Shown here piece by piece: positions 6,529 through 34,805 of a stretch of 38,965 bases of DNA. Position 1 is the first letter of the stretch. Every line of letters starts with the position of its first letter. A program made the translations under genes and the position numbers. The notes under the pieces are model-generated. The model was not told the origin of the DNA, ran no database searches, and was given only the letters and a program-made list of their open reading frames with translations. The DNA is taken from the IMG/VR virus record IMGVR_UViG_3300032289_001088, positions 1 through 38,965 of that record; one strand, written 5' to 3'. Origin of the DNA: a virus.

Positions 6529-7491
6529 CTAGGAGTTGTTGATTGAGGAAGTTGCCTCGATGCGGTACAGAGCCGCCTCGCGGTAACGTGCCCAGCCGAG
6601 TACGCCGTACCAACCCAGCGGGCGGTGACGCATCAACTTGTCCACAATCGGACCCTGAACCACATGCGGTTCTTCAGCAACGGCCTCAGCGAGAGCCTGC
6701 TTGCCGGCAATGATGGTGCGGAACACGCGAGTGGTGGACGAAGCACCATCAAGCGCCTGATACATGCGAGGGGTCTCAATGAAGTACGCACCCTCGTACG
6801 TTCCGATGAATCCCGGCCAGAAGTTCTCCGAGGCATCGTACTTGTGGAGGTCCTGGAACCCACCCGAACCAGTTTCGGCACGAAGATCGTGCGAAATCTC
6901 GGGGTGGATGTAGCAGGCGTACAGAGAACCCAGGCGAGGAACAGCAAGGCCGGCACGCAACTTGGCAATAGCCTTACGAACGTCTGCCGTAGCAAGCGTG
7001 TCGTCAGAGCCAATCGTTGCCGTCGAAGACGCATCAGTCGCGCCACCCGTACCGTAAAGCACGTTCGTTCCCTGACGGAGAACGTTCATAGCAACAGAGT
7101 CAAGCGAGTCAGCAAGGTTGTAGGCGATGATGTCGGCAGCAGCCGGATCAACGTCAGACAAGCTGAACAGGCCCAACTTGCGGGTGAGAAGTGCGGCATT
7201 GCCGTACTCATTGAGAGTGACGGTCACGGTGCTGGTGTTGCTGATAGCAACCGCATCCGGGTCCACGTTCTCAGTGAGGGTAGTGGTTGCCTGCGCCAGA
7301 TTTGAGTAAAGCTGGAAAACAACAGACGAACCGGGCATGGCCTGCTGCACAGGACGCTTATCAGCGATGTCACGGATGAGCGGCTGCGAACGAAGGGCCA
7401 TTTCTACATAACGGTCGTACGCGCTCTGGACGAGATTGGTAAGACCAGTCTGGTCCGAGATAGTCGCGGAACCGGTATATACATTTGCCAT
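6529..7491 (-). CDS. Major capsid protein, N4-gp56 family
   Basis: 320 aa, typical for a HK97-fold coat protein. The N-terminus (TNLVQSAYDRYVEMALRSQP) and the segment GSSVVFQLYSNLAQATTTLT match the N4 gp56-type coat family. The E-loop/spine region (TVTVTLNEYGNAALLTRKLG) and the P-domain stretch AVPRLGSLYACYIHPEISHD are also recognisable. The ATG is preceded by GAAGGTGAACACCT. It directly follows the scaffold gene and is followed by a hairpin. It assembles the icosahedral shell around the scaffold. This family is widespread in uncultured aquatic podovirus-like phages. I found no maturation protease gene nearby. Confidence 0.88.
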   Translation of the reverse strand: MANVYTGSATISDQTGLTNLVQSAYDRYVEMALRSQPLIRDIADKRPVQQAMPGSSVVFQLYSNLAQATTTLTENVDPDAVAISNTSTVTVTLNEYGNAALLTRKLGLFSLSDVDPAAADIIAYNLADSLDSVAMNVLRQGTNVLYGTGGATDASSTATIGSDDTLATADVRKAIAKLRAGLAVPRLGSLYACYIHPEISHDLRAETGSGGFQDLHKYDASENFWPGFIGTYEGAYFIETPRMYQALDGASSTTRVFRTIIAGKQALAEAVAEEPHVVQGPIVDKLMRHRPLGWYGVLGWARYREAALYRIEATSSINNS

Positions 7492-7541
7492 AGGTGTTCA
7501 CCTTCTTTCAAGTGCTAGATCGGATAGTTGGAGTCACGTCT

Positions 7542-8024
7542 CTAAAAGACGGACGGGCCAGACTCTGAACCGAACAGCAGTCGGTTCAATTCAGCCGGCG
7601 TAGATGCCGCCTGAATCTGAGCTAGCAGTTGCGACTCGTCCCCGGGAACCGGCTCACCCTGGTCCAAAATGGACTGCATGCGGTCAGCGTTCATAGGGGG
7701 GACAACCGGCGTATGAGCTTCAGGCTGCGCTTGCGACGGGGTTGATTGAACCCCAGCAAACACGTCAGCCCGCTCGTCAAGCCAGCGGTTGATGTCGTCA
7801 CTGCCGCGCAGATCAGACGGGATGAGGTCAGCGATCTTTGAGTTCAAGCCACGCGCGGCAAGAACATCAGACACACTGCGAGTCCGTTCCGTAGAACGGA
7901 AAGAATCCAGCTCGGACTCTAGTTCCTTAATACGCTTCGTTGCCGCCTTCTGTGCGGATCGAAGTTGCTTGATTCCCTCGGACTCGTTGCCCTCGAAATC
8001 GTCATCGTCGTCATAGAATGACAT
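7542..8024 (-). CDS. Scaffolding protein
   Basis: 160 aa from ATG 8024, with AAAGGGTG upstream; an in-frame ATG at 8117 has no ribosome site. The composition is typical of scaffolds: an acidic N-terminus (FYDDDDDFEGNESEGI), a coiled coil at about 17-45 (LRSAQKAATKRIKELESELD), then a helix and a Pro/Gln-rich linker (about residues 88-115). The C-terminus is helical (QLLAQIQAASTPAELNRLLF). It precedes the capsid gene as in most tailed phages and should direct procapsid assembly without remaining in the virion. The family is assigned from composition and location. Confidence 0.75.
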   Translation of the reverse strand: MSFYDDDDDFEGNESEGIKQLRSAQKAATKRIKELESELDSFRSTERTRSVSDVLAARGLNSKIADLIPSDLRGSDDINRWLDERADVFAGVQSTPSQAQPEAHTPVVPPMNADRMQSILDQGEPVPGDESQLLAQIQAASTPAELNRLLFGSESGPSVF

Positions 8025-8144
8025 GACTGTTACACCCTTTCGCTCATTCGTGAGATCGCAACCCACAACCATGACCGGGGAGTCTTGGAAGGCTGTTGCT
8101 ACCGGACTTGGACGCACATCAGGGCCGGTAGGTCTGACGTGGAG

Positions 8145-8223
8145 TGGAGCATCACGGAATCGAACCGTGGTCCCGCCAACTACCCTCGTGGGGTTCTAAT
8201 GGCGGTCGATACCTTCATGCCCC
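8145..8223 (-). ncRNA. tmRNA tRNA-like-domain mini RNA (no message domain)
   Basis: The minus strand folds as a 79-nt tRNA-like RNA. The acceptor stem is seven pairs, GGGGCAT (8223-8217) with ATGCTCC (8152-8146), with G3-U70 wobble and discriminator A at 8145: the alanine identity elements. The T arm is perfect: CACGG, loop TTCGATT, CCGTG (8169-8153). Between them there is no normal D or anticodon arm. Instead there is GGTATCGAC (8213-8205), a stem CGCCA/TGGCG with an inner hairpin ACCC/GGGT, and GGAC directly before the T stem. GGUUUCGAC after the acceptor and GGAC before the T stem are hallmarks of tmRNA ends, including mycobacterial ssrA as I recall it. The message and pseudoknot part is absent, and no CCA is encoded. 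It lies between the 319-aa gene and the scaffold gene. Confidence 0.75.
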
Positions 8224-8227
8224 TCCG

Positions 8228-9187
8228 CTACAGGTTCCTGTAGACGGATAGAGAATTTTGATCAACACCGGACGTGCCGGCAAACTTGGCTTGCTGACGC
8301 TGAGCACGAGCACGAGACCTCAACTGTGCTTCCTGATTACCGAACGTGGCCTGTGCAGCCTCAAACGAGTCGTAGTCTTCACCTTCCAATGCAGCCAACC
8401 TAGAGTCAGTAGATGCCGTAATGCCGGCAGCCTGCATCCTGTCGTCAATATCTGCAAGGGAACGGGAACGACCGTACGTGCTTGAAGACGAGGAGAAGTC
8501 TGTTGCCGTCATAGCACTCAGACGATCAACTTCATCAAGGTCTAGGTTGACCCCGTACTGGCTGGACTTGACTGCCAACGAAACCCCACGGATCGTGTTG
8601 TTTGCTGTGGACGTAATGATCGGCATTGCGGTTTCAGAGTCAAGCAGGAACGCTAAAGCGTCCCCTCGACTAAGACCGTAGTAGTCCTGTAGTTGCTGCG
8701 TGATCTGACCGCCGGAAGAATTAATCAATTCATTGGCAACGTCGATACGAGACTTCACCTCATCGGGCGACACCTCGGCAAGCAGCAAGTCGCGTGTCTT
8801 CTCCGGGGCACTCAACGCATTGGCCTGAACGTCAGTAAGACCACCAGCCCGCAAGTTAATCCTGTACTGATTCTGCTGCGCAATAAACTGGGCCTCAGCA
8901 TTACCTGCACTCAAGTAGCCCTTGCTGACCAGATCGGCAACACCGGGAAACCGTTGCGCATATGAGACAAAAAGGTTCGGGTTCTGTCGAACGTACGACA
9001 CCACATCGGAACCACGGACTGCCTGATTCTGCTTCTTGTAGGTAGCGATAGCAGCAATCTCAGTCTGGCTAAGAGCAATACCGTTGTTCTTCATGAGCAA
9101 CGTTGTCGCGTCCATCCAACGCTCAAAACGTGCTTTTCTTGCCTGTACGCGGGCAGCTCTCCTTTGCGCTGAGGGATCGACTGCCAT
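8228..9187 (-). CDS. Putative internal virion (ejection) protein
   Basis: 319 aa, almost entirely helical. The N-terminus is basic (AQRRAARVQARKARFERWMD), and Gln/Ala-rich helices run through the rest. The C-terminal part has a Ser-rich break (TATDFSSSSSTYGRSRSLAD) followed by a basic helix (QEAQLRSRARAQRQQAKFAG). No enzyme motif is visible. It is the last of four consecutive large helical proteins that precede the scaffold gene, and its ATG overlaps the stop of the upstream gene. Podovirus ejection proteins are usually helical, basic and clustered like this. The assignment is by composition and order. The tmRNA-like RNA begins five bases after its stop. Confidence 0.5.
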   Translation of the reverse strand: MAVDPSAQRRAARVQARKARFERWMDATTLLMKNNGIALSQTEIAAIATYKKQNQAVRGSDVVSYVRQNPNLFVSYAQRFPGVADLVSKGYLSAGNAEAQFIAQQNQYRINLRAGGLTDVQANALSAPEKTRDLLLAEVSPDEVKSRIDVANELINSSGGQITQQLQDYYGLSRGDALAFLLDSETAMPIITSTANNTIRGVSLAVKSSQYGVNLDLDEVDRLSAMTATDFSSSSSTYGRSRSLADIDDRMQAAGITASTDSRLAALEGEDYDSFEAAQATFGNQEAQLRSRARAQRQQAKFAGTSGVDQNSLSVYRNL

Positions 9188-32324: not shown

Positions 32325-33100
32325 CGCGCCTCCATGTCACCGAGGTGCATTCGTGCCGGCTCATAGGACAGCCATGACACGGTGGAACCGGAATAGTCAG
32401 CAGGTCCGTAACGGTTTTTCACCGCTGCCACACCCATGAATCCAGGTTGAGAGTTAGTTACCGTGAGGATCAGTGCAGGAGTCTGTGCCACTTTGCCTTG
32501 GATGGAACTGCGTGGTGGTGCAGGGTTTCCGCTGGACGATTCACTCGTGTGGTGCAGCACGAGCAGGGCACTACCTGTCTCACGTGCCCACCATTTGAAC
32601 TCCCGCAGCAGGCTTCGCATCGAGTTCCATTCGTCCCCGTCACTGTGGGTACAGTCGAGCAGGTTGTCGACGACAATGAGTTCGGGGTATTGCCCGAACA
32701 TTTCTAGGAACGCTGCAATCTCCAGCTCAATGTCGGCTAGTGATGGTGCTGACTCGAAACACCACCTAATGTGGCTTGCTTCGGCAAGCACGGATGCCGC
32801 CCATGCAGGGTCAGACATGAGGGGTTCGATCATGTTCTGATCGGTGTCAGTGATCATTGCCGCTAGGCGTAGAGCCATCGTGTCCGAATAGGTGTCTGCC
32901 GAGAAGTACAAGGTGGGTCTGGCTGCCTTCAGTGCCCAGTGCAGGGCGAACGTGGACTTACCTGCCCCTGGTGGGCCGGCAATCATGGATACTTCTGCAC
33001 GCCGAAGGCTGATTTGCTGGTTGGCAAGGGTTGTGTAAACAGTGGGCAGGGATGCTGCCACTTTTGTGCCGGCGGCAATAGTCCTGTGCAGGCTACGCAT
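32321..33100 (-). CDS. RecA/DnaB-like ATPase, putative replicative helicase or recombinase
   Basis: 259 aa, a single P-loop domain. Walker A is GPPGAGKST near residue 42 and Walker B is ELIVVDNLLD near 138, with the later LLVLHHTSE strand containing the sensor-like His and KVAQTPALILTVTNSQ. It lacks the N-terminal domain of DnaB. The family is AAA_25 or KaiC/RecA-type. It lies next to primase, so a helicase is likely, but a RecA-type annealer remains possible. Confidence 0.75.
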   Translation of the reverse strand: MRSLHRTIAAGTKVAASLPTVYTTLANQQISLRRAEVSMIAGPPGAGKSTFALHWALKAARPTLYFSADTYSDTMALRLAAMITDTDQNMIEPLMSDPAWAASVLAEASHIRWCFESAPSLADIELEIAAFLEMFGQYPELIVVDNLLDCTHSDGDEWNSMRSLLREFKWWARETGSALLVLHHTSESSSGNPAPPRSSIQGKVAQTPALILTVTNSQPGFMGVAAVKNRYGPADYSGSTVSWLSYEPARMHLGDMEAR

Positions 33101-33392
33101 TCGCTATCAACGCACCTAGATAGTGGGCTACGTTGACTGTCACTGCGTTACCGCATTGGCGGTAGCGGTGTGAGTCTGCTTGTCCGACTGTCCAGTCGTC
33201 AGGGAATCCTTGGAGTCGTTCACATTCAACAGGTGTGAGCCGACGTACGGACATGGGGTGGACAGCAAGAACGGTGGCACGTGTTTCGGTTGCGTTGTCA
33301 AAAGCATTCAATGTTGGTGACACCCCCCCCTGTACCCATGTCTCATAGTCGGTGTCATTCATTGCCCGTCGCGATTTCGTCCATGCCTCCAC
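33093..33392 (-). CDS. DNA cytosine methyltransferase, C-terminal fragment
   Basis: 99 aa from GTG with GGAGG 6 nt upstream. It carries the last C5-methyltransferase motifs: RRLTPVECERLQGFPDDWT (motif IX region) and RYRQCGNAVTVNVAHY (motif X). Motifs I-VIII lie in a separate gene at 33554-34354, in another frame. Between them is a small zinc-ribbon gene. Its own ribosome site argues that it is expressed, and natural split enzymes such as M.AquI work as two chains. A G8 tract at 33323-33330 lies in its coding sequence. Confidence 0.8.
   Translation of the reverse strand: MEAWTKSRRAMNDTDYETWVQGGVSPTLNAFDNATETRATVLAVHPMSVRRLTPVECERLQGFPDDWTVGQADSHRYRQCGNAVTVNVAHYLGALIANA
33323..33330. repeat. 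Homopolymer C8 (G8 in the gene)
   Basis: Eight C on the plus strand, in the sequence coding for QGGVS of the methyltransferase C-terminal fragment. Tracts of this length slip during replication and would shift the frame. Confidence 0.85.
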
Positions 33393-33546
33393 TGAGCACC
33401 TCCAAGCAGTCAGTGCAAAGGTGGTGTGGTCCTATGTCGTCGCCGCAGTTGCAGCAGGTTTCCTCACACGTCATTTGGTGTACGGGATCAGCAGGCCGGC
33501 GTAAGCGTCTTGCCCGTTGTATGAACCCGGGTGTGCTCCTTGGCAT
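33355..33546 (-). CDS. Small zinc-ribbon protein inserted in the split methyltransferase
   Basis: 63 aa from ATG 33546, or 39 aa from an internal ATG at 33474. The C-terminal part has ETCCNCGDDIGPHHLCTDCL, a C-x2-C...C-x2-C zinc ribbon. The N-terminal half (QRARRLRRPADPVH) is basic. AACAATATG at the start resembles the early promoter box. It overlaps the C-terminal methyltransferase gene by 38 nt. It may bind DNA or aid the split enzyme; no family recognised. Confidence 0.55.
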   Translation of the reverse strand: MPRSTPGFIQRARRLRRPADPVHQMTCEETCCNCGDDIGPHHLCTDCLEVLSGGMDEIATGNE

Positions 33547-33553
33547 ATTGTTC

Positions 33554-34354
33554 CTACGATTGGTTGCGTGGGATGATTACGGCTGGCATTCGTCGCTTCT
33601 CTGGCATCATCTGGCCTTTGACCAACATGCTCACGTCCAGACAGTCGCTGGTTTGTGTCCCGTCCCAGTAGGTCGGTGTGTGTGTGTGTGTGTGTGTGGC
33701 TATGCCGTCAGTAGCGTCTGGTCCGTCACGCAAGCCCTCAACGCTGCGTCCAGAGCTGCCGGCAGAACCTTGCCCTTGCGGGTAGAACGTCTCAGGATTC
33801 CAGCGCAAGCCTTCTCGCTCAACAAATACTTGTCTGCCACCATCGGTAGTAGAGCGTCCGACAATGAACACTCGACGACGACGTTGGGGCACTCCGAAGA
33901 ACTGCGAATCCAACACTCGCCATTCGATGTGGCGATACCCTGCGTCGGCCATCGCAGAGATGACGACCCCGAAGTCTTCTCCGTCGTTGCTTGAAAGAAG
34001 TCCTGGCACATTTTCCAGCACGAACCATCCTGCTTCGACATGCGTTGAGAAAGCGAGTGCGTCCCAGAACAGACCGCTTCGCTCTCCGGCCAGTCCAGCA
34101 CGCTTACCTGCCCGTGAAACGTCTTGGCAGGGGAATCCTCCACAAACAAGGTCTGTTCGACCCACGAGTCCGATTCTGTTAGCCCAGTCAACTGCTGTCC
34201 TCACATCGTCATGGCGAGGTACATCGGGCCAGTGGCGGGTAAGCACTCCCTGTGCGTGCTTGTCTATCTCCACTTGCCCAATGCACTCGTGGCCTGCACG
34301 TTCCAGACCCAGATCGAAACCGCCGATACCGGCGAACAGGGATACGAACCTCAT
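33554..34354 (-). CDS. DNA cytosine methyltransferase, N-terminal fragment
   Basis: 266 aa from ATG 34354, four bases after the start of the upstream stop. C5-methyltransferase motifs: FAGIGGFDLGLE (I, AdoMet binding), VEIDKHAQ (II), GGFPCQDVS (IV, catalytic Cys), ENVPG (VI) and QRRRRVFIVG (VIII). The recognition domain would follow, to about residue 240, and includes THTHTHT from a (GT)11 tract. The chain ends PAVIIPRNQS, where a full enzyme would continue to motif IX. It may protect phage DNA from restriction. Confidence 0.85.
   Translation of the reverse strand: MRFVSLFAGIGGFDLGLERAGHECIGQVEIDKHAQGVLTRHWPDVPRHDDVRTAVDWANRIGLVGRTDLVCGGFPCQDVSRAGKRAGLAGERSGLFWDALAFSTHVEAGWFVLENVPGLLSSNDGEDFGVVISAMADAGYRHIEWRVLDSQFFGVPQRRRRVFIVGRSTTDGGRQVFVEREGLRWNPETFYPQGQGSAGSSGRSVEGLRDGPDATDGIATHTHTHTPTYWDGTQTSDCLDVSMLVKGQMMPEKRRMPAVIIPRNQS
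33676..33698. repeat. (GT)11 dinucleotide tract in the methyltransferase
   Basis: Twenty-three bases of alternating G and T on the plus strand, coding for His-Thr repeats in the variable region after motif VIII. Gain or loss of one unit changes the frame, so this is a candidate contingency locus. Confidence 0.9.
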
Positions 34355-34355
34355 G

Positions 34356-34805
34356 TCAGACAGAGATTCGCTTCTTGCACTGCACTTCACGCGGTGCAGC
34401 ACATGCGTAGAACGCACGGAACGGGTTGCCCGTGGACTTCGATACCCCTGCGGGGATCAGCTTCATGGGCTGTCCGTGGTCACACGTCGGTGCGTTGCCT
34501 GCTGGGGCCGCCTGTTGTGCAGGTGGCGTCCATGCCGGCTGCGTGGGCGTGGATGGTGCCCACTGGTTTGTGGGGGGAGCGAAAGGCTCAGCCTCGATGA
34601 CGGTTCCACCGAGGGTGGAGACTGCCTGAGCGGTGCCGGGATCGGTGGTGAGGGTCTGGATGAGTCCGATAGCGATAGCGAATCCGGGGTTGGTGGCTGC
34701 GGCATCTGCGATAGCCACAAACCCTTCGACTGTTTCTGCCCGCAGAGTGAGTAGGTCCCCGTTGATCTTTGTCGTGAACGACACGGGTGCTTCAGTGTGT
34801 GCCAT
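34356..34805 (-). CDS. Protein with C-terminal zinc ribbon, putative DNA-binding
   Basis: 149 aa from ATG 34805, with AGGAG 7-8 nt upstream. Residues 1-75 are a small domain (TTKINGDLLTLRAETVEGFV), 76-110 a Pro/Gln/Ala-rich linker (PPTNQWAPSTPTQPAWTP), and 115-149 a zinc ribbon (CDHGQPMKLIPAGVSKSTGN then FYACAAPREVQCKKRI). The ribbon resembles topoisomerase-type C4 ribbons that bind single-stranded DNA. An SSB-like job beside the RecB-like nuclease is possible. The promoter element CGCAATATGACAC lies just upstream. Confidence 0.6.
   Translation of the reverse strand: MAHTEAPVSFTTKINGDLLTLRAETVEGFVAIADAAATNPGFAIAIGLIQTLTTDPGTAQAVSTLGGTVIEAEPFAPPTNQWAPSTPTQPAWTPPAQQAAPAGNAPTCDHGQPMKLIPAGVSKSTGNPFRAFYACAAPREVQCKKRISV

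Follow-up and report, generated by a model that had tools for sequence, protein, structure and literature searches.

Nearly all bacteria use trans-translation, a process that matters to phages. RNAs reduced to the tRNA-like domain (TLD) of tmRNA have already been described in one phage and in certain organelles. The phage example is mycobacteriophage DS6A, which, in the papers that cite the original report, is described as carrying a TLD-only tmRNA (Mao et al. 2009, cited in PMC4131195 and PMC11915505). According to the same secondary accounts, a DS6A-like molecule strongly inhibits Escherichia coli tmRNA whether or not it can be charged, perhaps by titration of SmpB (Mao et al. 2009, via PMC4131195 and PMC11915505). 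The case for a dedicated phage RNA against trans-translation has so far rested on this one mycobacteriophage example. The 38,965-nt viral DNA analyzed here (the window) contains an RNA gene of the same general type, with both TLD halves, little between them, and a phage genome as its carrier.

A conserved structured RNA gene in the late operon

The gene is 79 nt long and runs from 8223 to 8145 on the minus strand, the strand that encodes the late operon (RNA nucleotide n corresponds to window position 8224-n). Its layout is GGGGCAU-GAAGGUAUCGAC-(31-nt hairpin)-GGAC-CACGG-UUCGAUU-CCGUG-AUGCUCC-A, and CCA is not encoded in this copy. A sequence-only reading had listed an acceptor stem (GGGGCAU/AUGCUCC) with G3-U70 and A73, a T arm, GGUAUCGAC, GGAC, and a 31-nt hairpin, and inspection of the sequence found all of them; the segment after the acceptor, a tmRNA feature, is GGTATCGAC. 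The RNA, its parts, and the neighboring genes are as follows (R2 is the covariance model of the family).

8145..8223, minus: TLD-only tmRNA-like RNA gene, 79 nt; R2, 87.5 bits; RF00023, 36.6 bits; 60 distinct family members
8217..8223, minus: acceptor 5' strand GGGGCAU; paired with 8146-8152 at 7/7 positions; covariation in pairs 4-69 to 7-66
8205..8216, minus: D-like region GAAGGUAUCGAC, tmRNA-like, without a D stem; supported by GGWWTCGAC motif counts
8174..8204, minus: 31-nt hairpin with outer stem, purine bulge, inner stem, and CACGA loop; supported by covariation
8182..8194, minus: inner 4-bp hairpin ACCC-CACGA-GGGU, loop at 8186-8190; loop kept in most relatives
8170..8173, minus: GGAC 5' of the T stem; motif shared with tmRNA
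8153..8169, minus: T arm CACGG-UUCGAUU-CCGUG; T-stem pairs covary; T loop UUCGAUU in 51/60
8145..8152, minus: acceptor 3' strand AUGCUCC plus A73; A73 in 60/60
8228..9187, minus: upstream gene, phrog_8424 (unknown); its stop codon precedes the RNA by 4 nt
7542..8024, minus: downstream gene in scaffold position, phrog_7813; 120 nt past the RNA, same order in relatives
6529..7491, minus: major capsid protein, phrog_1357; E value, 1.1e-81

The stretch is confirmed as a real structured RNA gene; its identity as a tmRNA-derived element is well supported, and its function is what we infer. The unconstrained minimum fold of the window RNA (-34.1 kcal/mol; z, -2.76) differs from the tRNA-like fold, which at -32.3 kcal/mol lies 1.8 kcal/mol above that optimum. 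The tRNA-like fold is nevertheless preferred, because it is the one supported by covariation in 60 relatives. Standard pairs occupy 94.9% of pair cells among the 60 distinct members, versus 63.5% in shuffles, the covariation score is 0.693 versus 0.128, and 18 of 23 pairs have changed on both sides. The signal of pairing and covariation is destroyed when the 3' strands of the alignment are slid. Chance origin is excluded, since no shuffle matched the observed pairing or covariation and the top Rfam family is tmRNA. Essentially the same fold was recovered independently by RNAalifold, from an alignment (A4) that had been fitted to the covariance model. The sequence-only reading had made its proposal depend on conservation of the stems in related phages, and the 60-member alignment bears it out, with the stems kept and many compensatory changes. 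Covariation extends to the 31-nt hairpin (all 7 pairs of the outer stem and 3 of the 4 in the inner stem), the inner loop of which is CACGA or CAUGA in most relatives and CAYG or CAAGA in some.

Family members and genomic setting

Eighty IMG/VR loci were fetched by the capsid protein alone, with the RNA disregarded in their choice, and 44 of them contain the RNA. The covariance model R2, built from 12 sequences including the window copy, gives full-length members 45 to 98 bits, mostly >56, while tRNAs and fragments of true tmRNAs score ≤36. The 60 distinct members come from the capsid-fetched loci, other viral contigs, and four isolated phages, and each phage genome has one copy; a weak 34.9-bit match in phage Stella is its tRNA-Ala. 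The RNA is unannotated in the isolated phages, which are Stenotrophomonas phage Jojan60 (L001:4001-4080, with CCA encoded and near four tRNAs), Streptomyces phages pSt2308 (L196:3001-3078) and Shaeky (L197:2501-2579), both within a tRNA array, and Pontimonas phage phiPsal1 (L198:5001-5079, just upstream of an HK97-type capsid gene). The Jojan60 record (ON045087.1 33724-41804) lists a hypothetical protein, UPU15879.1, whose gene shares sequence with the 5' portion of the mini-tmRNA, and it assigns the four tRNAs to the strand opposite to that called by ARAGORN.

A single scan over species genomes of bacteria and archaea (84,980 in all), with a narrow pattern that rare prophage copies could escape, yielded no confirmed mini-tmRNA. 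Five Glycomyces matches were rejected: ARAGORN calls four of them true tmRNAs, and the fifth, at a locus cut too close for ARAGORN, is identical to them in sequence. Short T-arm matches in Gordonia phages (e.g., BetterKatz) were also rejected as family members, as they look like ssrA attachment sites. None of the 21 phage records searched has a gene for SmpB, so host SmpB would be the partner of the RNA.

Most members are neighbors of the major capsid gene, a placement seen in three or more unrelated head modules, and others lie in tRNA arrays. The RNA is located between a phrog_8424-like gene and the scaffold gene in the capsid-fetched loci examined, and further relatives with capsid identities as low as 33% have the same gene order. 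It is placed between the maturation protease (phrog_80) and the capsid gene (phrog_10) in L085, L128, L183, L188, and L195, starting 6 to 8 nt past the protease stop codon. The protease is also upstream of the RNA in L088, and in L209 the RNA follows a third capsid type (phrog_1005). The RNA is dispensable, since it is absent in the close relatives L037 and L058 and reduced to a remnant in the L016 type (L016:3291-3336; also L017, L018, and L050). This 46-nt remnant, GGGACGA...UCGUCCCA, replaces the mini-tmRNA and has a 7-bp acceptor, a 5-bp T arm, G3-C70, and the T loop UUCGUGG, with a tiny hairpin for the remainder. L191 has a longer candidate TLD RNA of tmRNA-like character (104 nt; GGGGTATTTCAGGTTTCGATTG...GATACTCCA), the middle of which differs; it may be a further message-less form.

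A second conserved structured RNA is found at window positions 8045-8130 (minus strand), between the mini-tmRNA and the scaffold gene, and occupies the same place in L006-L057, L016, L037, L102, L202, and L212. It consists of an ACCGG...CCGGU stem, a GUCAC...GUGGC stem, and a long hairpin, with invariant GCCC, AAG, and CCCC, and has compensatory changes in 13 of 18 predicted pairs and no Rfam match. It persists where the mini-tmRNA is absent (L037) and is possibly the leader of the scaffold-capsid mRNA. Elsewhere in the window, a C5-cytosine methyltransferase (33093-34417, minus strand) seemingly lies in two frames with an HTHTHTHT repeat near the break, possibly reflecting repeat-mediated frameshifting or phase variation.

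Relation to tmRNA and the alanine identity set

The best Rfam family on a 171-nt stretch around the gene is tmRNA (RF00023; 36.6 bits; E value, 1.2e-13), and other members of the Rfam clan score below tmRNA at this site. The match spans model positions 1-374 with 292 positions deleted. At 36.6 bits the window copy is under the curated RF00023 threshold of 47 bits, but it is filed as tmRNA-derived because relatives pass that threshold, as did 8 of the 15 records tested. RF00023 scores were 67.5 bits for L102, 61.8 for Jojan60, 61.0 for pSt2308, 59.3 for Shaeky, 57.8 for both L101 and L189, 56.4 for L202, and 54.6 for phiPsal1. The best tRNA-sized bacterial matches on the tmRNA model reached 29 to 33 bits. 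The covariance search on which the proposed tmRNA link had been made to hinge thus came out in its favor, with scores well above background and, in relatives, above the curated threshold.

The RNA has the features of the tmRNA TLD (G3-U70, A73, a T arm, and no D stem). The tag frame and pseudoknots of tmRNA are missing, and the 31-nt hairpin is too small to hold them. The hairpin had been noted to contain a readable frame that was judged unlikely to be a real tag; this judgment holds, as the frame is not conserved among relatives. The motif GGWWTCGAC after the acceptor occurs in 26 of 29 true actinobacterial tmRNAs, which served as the comparison set, and in 15 of 60 mini-tmRNAs. GGAC before the T stem is found in 29 of 29 and 16 of 60, respectively, and its AC in 51 of 60 mini-tmRNAs. 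An AGA(N)GCC-like motif begins 27 to 29 nt 5' of the T stem in most true actinobacterial tmRNAs, and A[AGC][AG]NCC begins at the same distance in nearly all mini-tmRNAs; the scan pattern required a similar A[AGC][AG]NCC-type motif in some members without fixing its distance to the T stem.

These shared motifs indicate that the mini-tmRNA apparently arose from a tmRNA by an internal deletion that extends from the 5' strand of helix P2 to the 3' segment with this motif. Loss of ~270 to 290 nt from the middle of an ancestral tmRNA would have given the message-less form, and the retained 3' segment may later have become the hairpin with the CACGA/CAUGA loop. Loss of the exact tmRNA D motif in 45 of the 60 members might weaken SmpB binding.

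Two other assignments were rejected. A tRNA (RF00005) has a D stem and an anticodon arm with a 7-nt loop, which the window RNA lacks; ARAGORN calls no tRNA, and tmRNA is the best clan family at the site. Permuted tmRNA (RF04321) is excluded by the order of the halves, 5' and then 3', and by a score of 12.9 bits against 47. ARAGORN reports a "tmRNA*" at 7500-8235 (minus strand) with the tag ASSDSGGIYAG, but this permuted call is false, as it runs through the scaffold gene and overlaps the mini-tmRNA. It recurs only in the near-identical loci L005 and L008, is absent in L006 and L007, and will spread through automated annotation. A whole-window Rfam scan did not list the RNA, presumably owing to speed filters. 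Routine annotation (ARAGORN and whole-genome Rfam scans) therefore misses or miscalls the gene.

G3-U70 is present in all 60 members, while the neighboring pair 4-69 varies (GC, UA, CG, AU, and GU), and A73 is equally invariant. A second scan pattern left the acceptor unspecified, and all of the distinct full-length viral elements that it returned have seven acceptor pairs, G3-U70, and A73. A wobble pair frozen amid freely covarying pairs is the pattern expected from selection for charging by alanyl-tRNA synthetase (AlaRS). As inhibition was reported regardless of charging, titration alone leaves the invariance of G3-U70 unexplained, which points to a role for charging over and above SmpB titration.

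Possible function and comparison with known systems

The most probable reading, to which we assign a probability of roughly 0.55, is that the RNA is a message-less tmRNA, derived from tmRNA by deletion of its middle, that would compete with host tmRNA and damp trans-translation late in infection. It builds on the fold, conservation, tmRNA relationship, alanine identity set, restriction to phages, and genomic position established above; processing, charging, SmpB binding, and inhibition are the steps that we infer. The late transcript would be abundant next to the capsid gene, host tRNA-processing enzymes would trim it to an RNA of ~79 nt, and CCA would be added. AlaRS could then charge the RNA through G3-U70 and A73, and SmpB and EF-Tu would bind it as they do tmRNA. 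The charged RNA would compete with host tmRNA for SmpB and/or sit in stalled ribosomes, supplying no tag frame. Late infection would consequently see less tagging and proteolysis of nascent phage proteins and less ribosome release. The inhibitor reading is extended to the window RNA because the logic of the DS6A type applies to a charged, SmpB-competent, message-less TLD; by this analogy, such a TLD at high level late in infection would be predicted to suppress tagging of nascent phage proteins. A broader proposal, which we hold tentatively and at somewhat less than even odds, is that message-less tmRNAs form an RNA family, widespread among phages, that damps or rewires ribosome rescue in the host during capsid synthesis, with the CANGA hairpin as an added functional module (e.g., for ribosome block or factor recruitment) and independent placement by the capsid genes of unrelated phages.

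The location of the gene also suits a role in punctuating the transcript, in which RNase P and 3' tRNA nucleases would excise the RNA, separate the upstream (protease or virion gene) mRNA from the scaffold/capsid mRNA, and give the capsid mRNA its own 5' end. The RNA begins a few nucleotides past the upstream stop and just before the scaffold/capsid genes in unrelated head modules, a tRNA array occupies the same place in Streptomyces relatives, and the L016-type remnant retains only the acceptor and T arm, which suffice for RNase P. However, cutting does not depend on G3-U70, A73, or the bases specific to tmRNA, which are nonetheless invariant or retained, and the copies in pSt2308, Shaeky, and Jojan60 lie in or near tRNA arrays, away from the capsid genes, making punctuation unlikely as the explanation. 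Processing of the capsid transcript is plausible as a second effect of the RNA, since RNase P cuts tRNA-like structures, and would explain both the preference for capsid genes and the survival of the bare acceptor/T-arm remnant in one clade.

The invariant alanine identity bears on two further explanations. It implies that charging matters, as it would if the charged RNA and SmpB freed stalled ribosomes without a degradation tag, sparing phage proteins. We know of no peptide release without a message, and the idea that the purine bulge provides an immediate stop codon (UAA, UAG, or UGA) fails in several members (L014, L088, L128, L132, L178, and L183). Such tagless rescue is quite unlikely, because the similar published molecule is described, in the papers citing it, as an inhibitor of tmRNA, although mitochondrial tmRNAs without a tag frame are retained alongside SmpB (PMC11915505). 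The same invariance, together with the members within tRNA arrays, could reflect a degenerate tRNA-Ala or an Ala-tRNA decoy for AlaRS, a tRNA-targeting defence nuclease, or an Ala-tRNA-using peptidyl transferase. Defences that cut tRNA exist, but the absence of an anticodon arm and D stem, the preference for tmRNA over tRNA in Rfam clan competition, and a hairpin holding the tmRNA 3' motif at tmRNA spacing make this improbable. Finally, phages and islands often integrate at ssrA, and BetterKatz has a similar T-arm/acceptor fragment beside its integrase, but a nonfunctional attP/attL fragment left by integration into host ssrA has almost no credibility here: both TLD halves are present, the position is unrelated to the integrase in the window, gene order around the capsid persists to capsid identities as low as 33%, and stem covariation across 60 sequences refutes it.

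Competition with host tmRNA remains the preferred reading. The breadth of the RNA family, its covariation, conserved hairpin, and recurrent position by capsid genes were not found described in the open-access literature. With a 60-sequence family, a robust model, members in cultivated phages, and a recurrent capsid-side position, the question becomes directly testable.

The mini-tmRNA shares with bacterial tmRNA (RF00023) the G3-U70/A73 acceptor, the D-like loop without a D stem, GGAC, the T arm, and a 3' AGA-GCC segment equally distant from the T stem. Unlike bacterial tmRNA, it has lost the tag frame, every pseudoknot, and the greater part of helix P2, has a covarying 31-nt hairpin as replacement, and is found only in phages. 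The full-length or permuted tmRNAs of Bxz1, Wildcat, phage G, and Melnitz are likewise phage-encoded ssrA RNAs (PMC4131195 and PMC9004378), but they encode a tag and presumably perform trans-translation, whereas the mini-tmRNA cannot encode a tag. The tmRNAs of Mallomonadaceae plastids (~65 bp) and jakobid mitochondria that lack a coding sequence have also shrunk to the TLD and lost the message, but they are organellar and serve the cell, while the mini-tmRNA is phage-borne (PMC11915505). The DS6A RNA is closest, being, as described in the citing literature, phage-borne with little beyond the TLD and no tag frame. It is a single reported case, compared here by that description only, versus 60 distinct sequences from several phage lineages, and if it shares the CANGA hairpin, the window copy is a new member of the DS6A kind.
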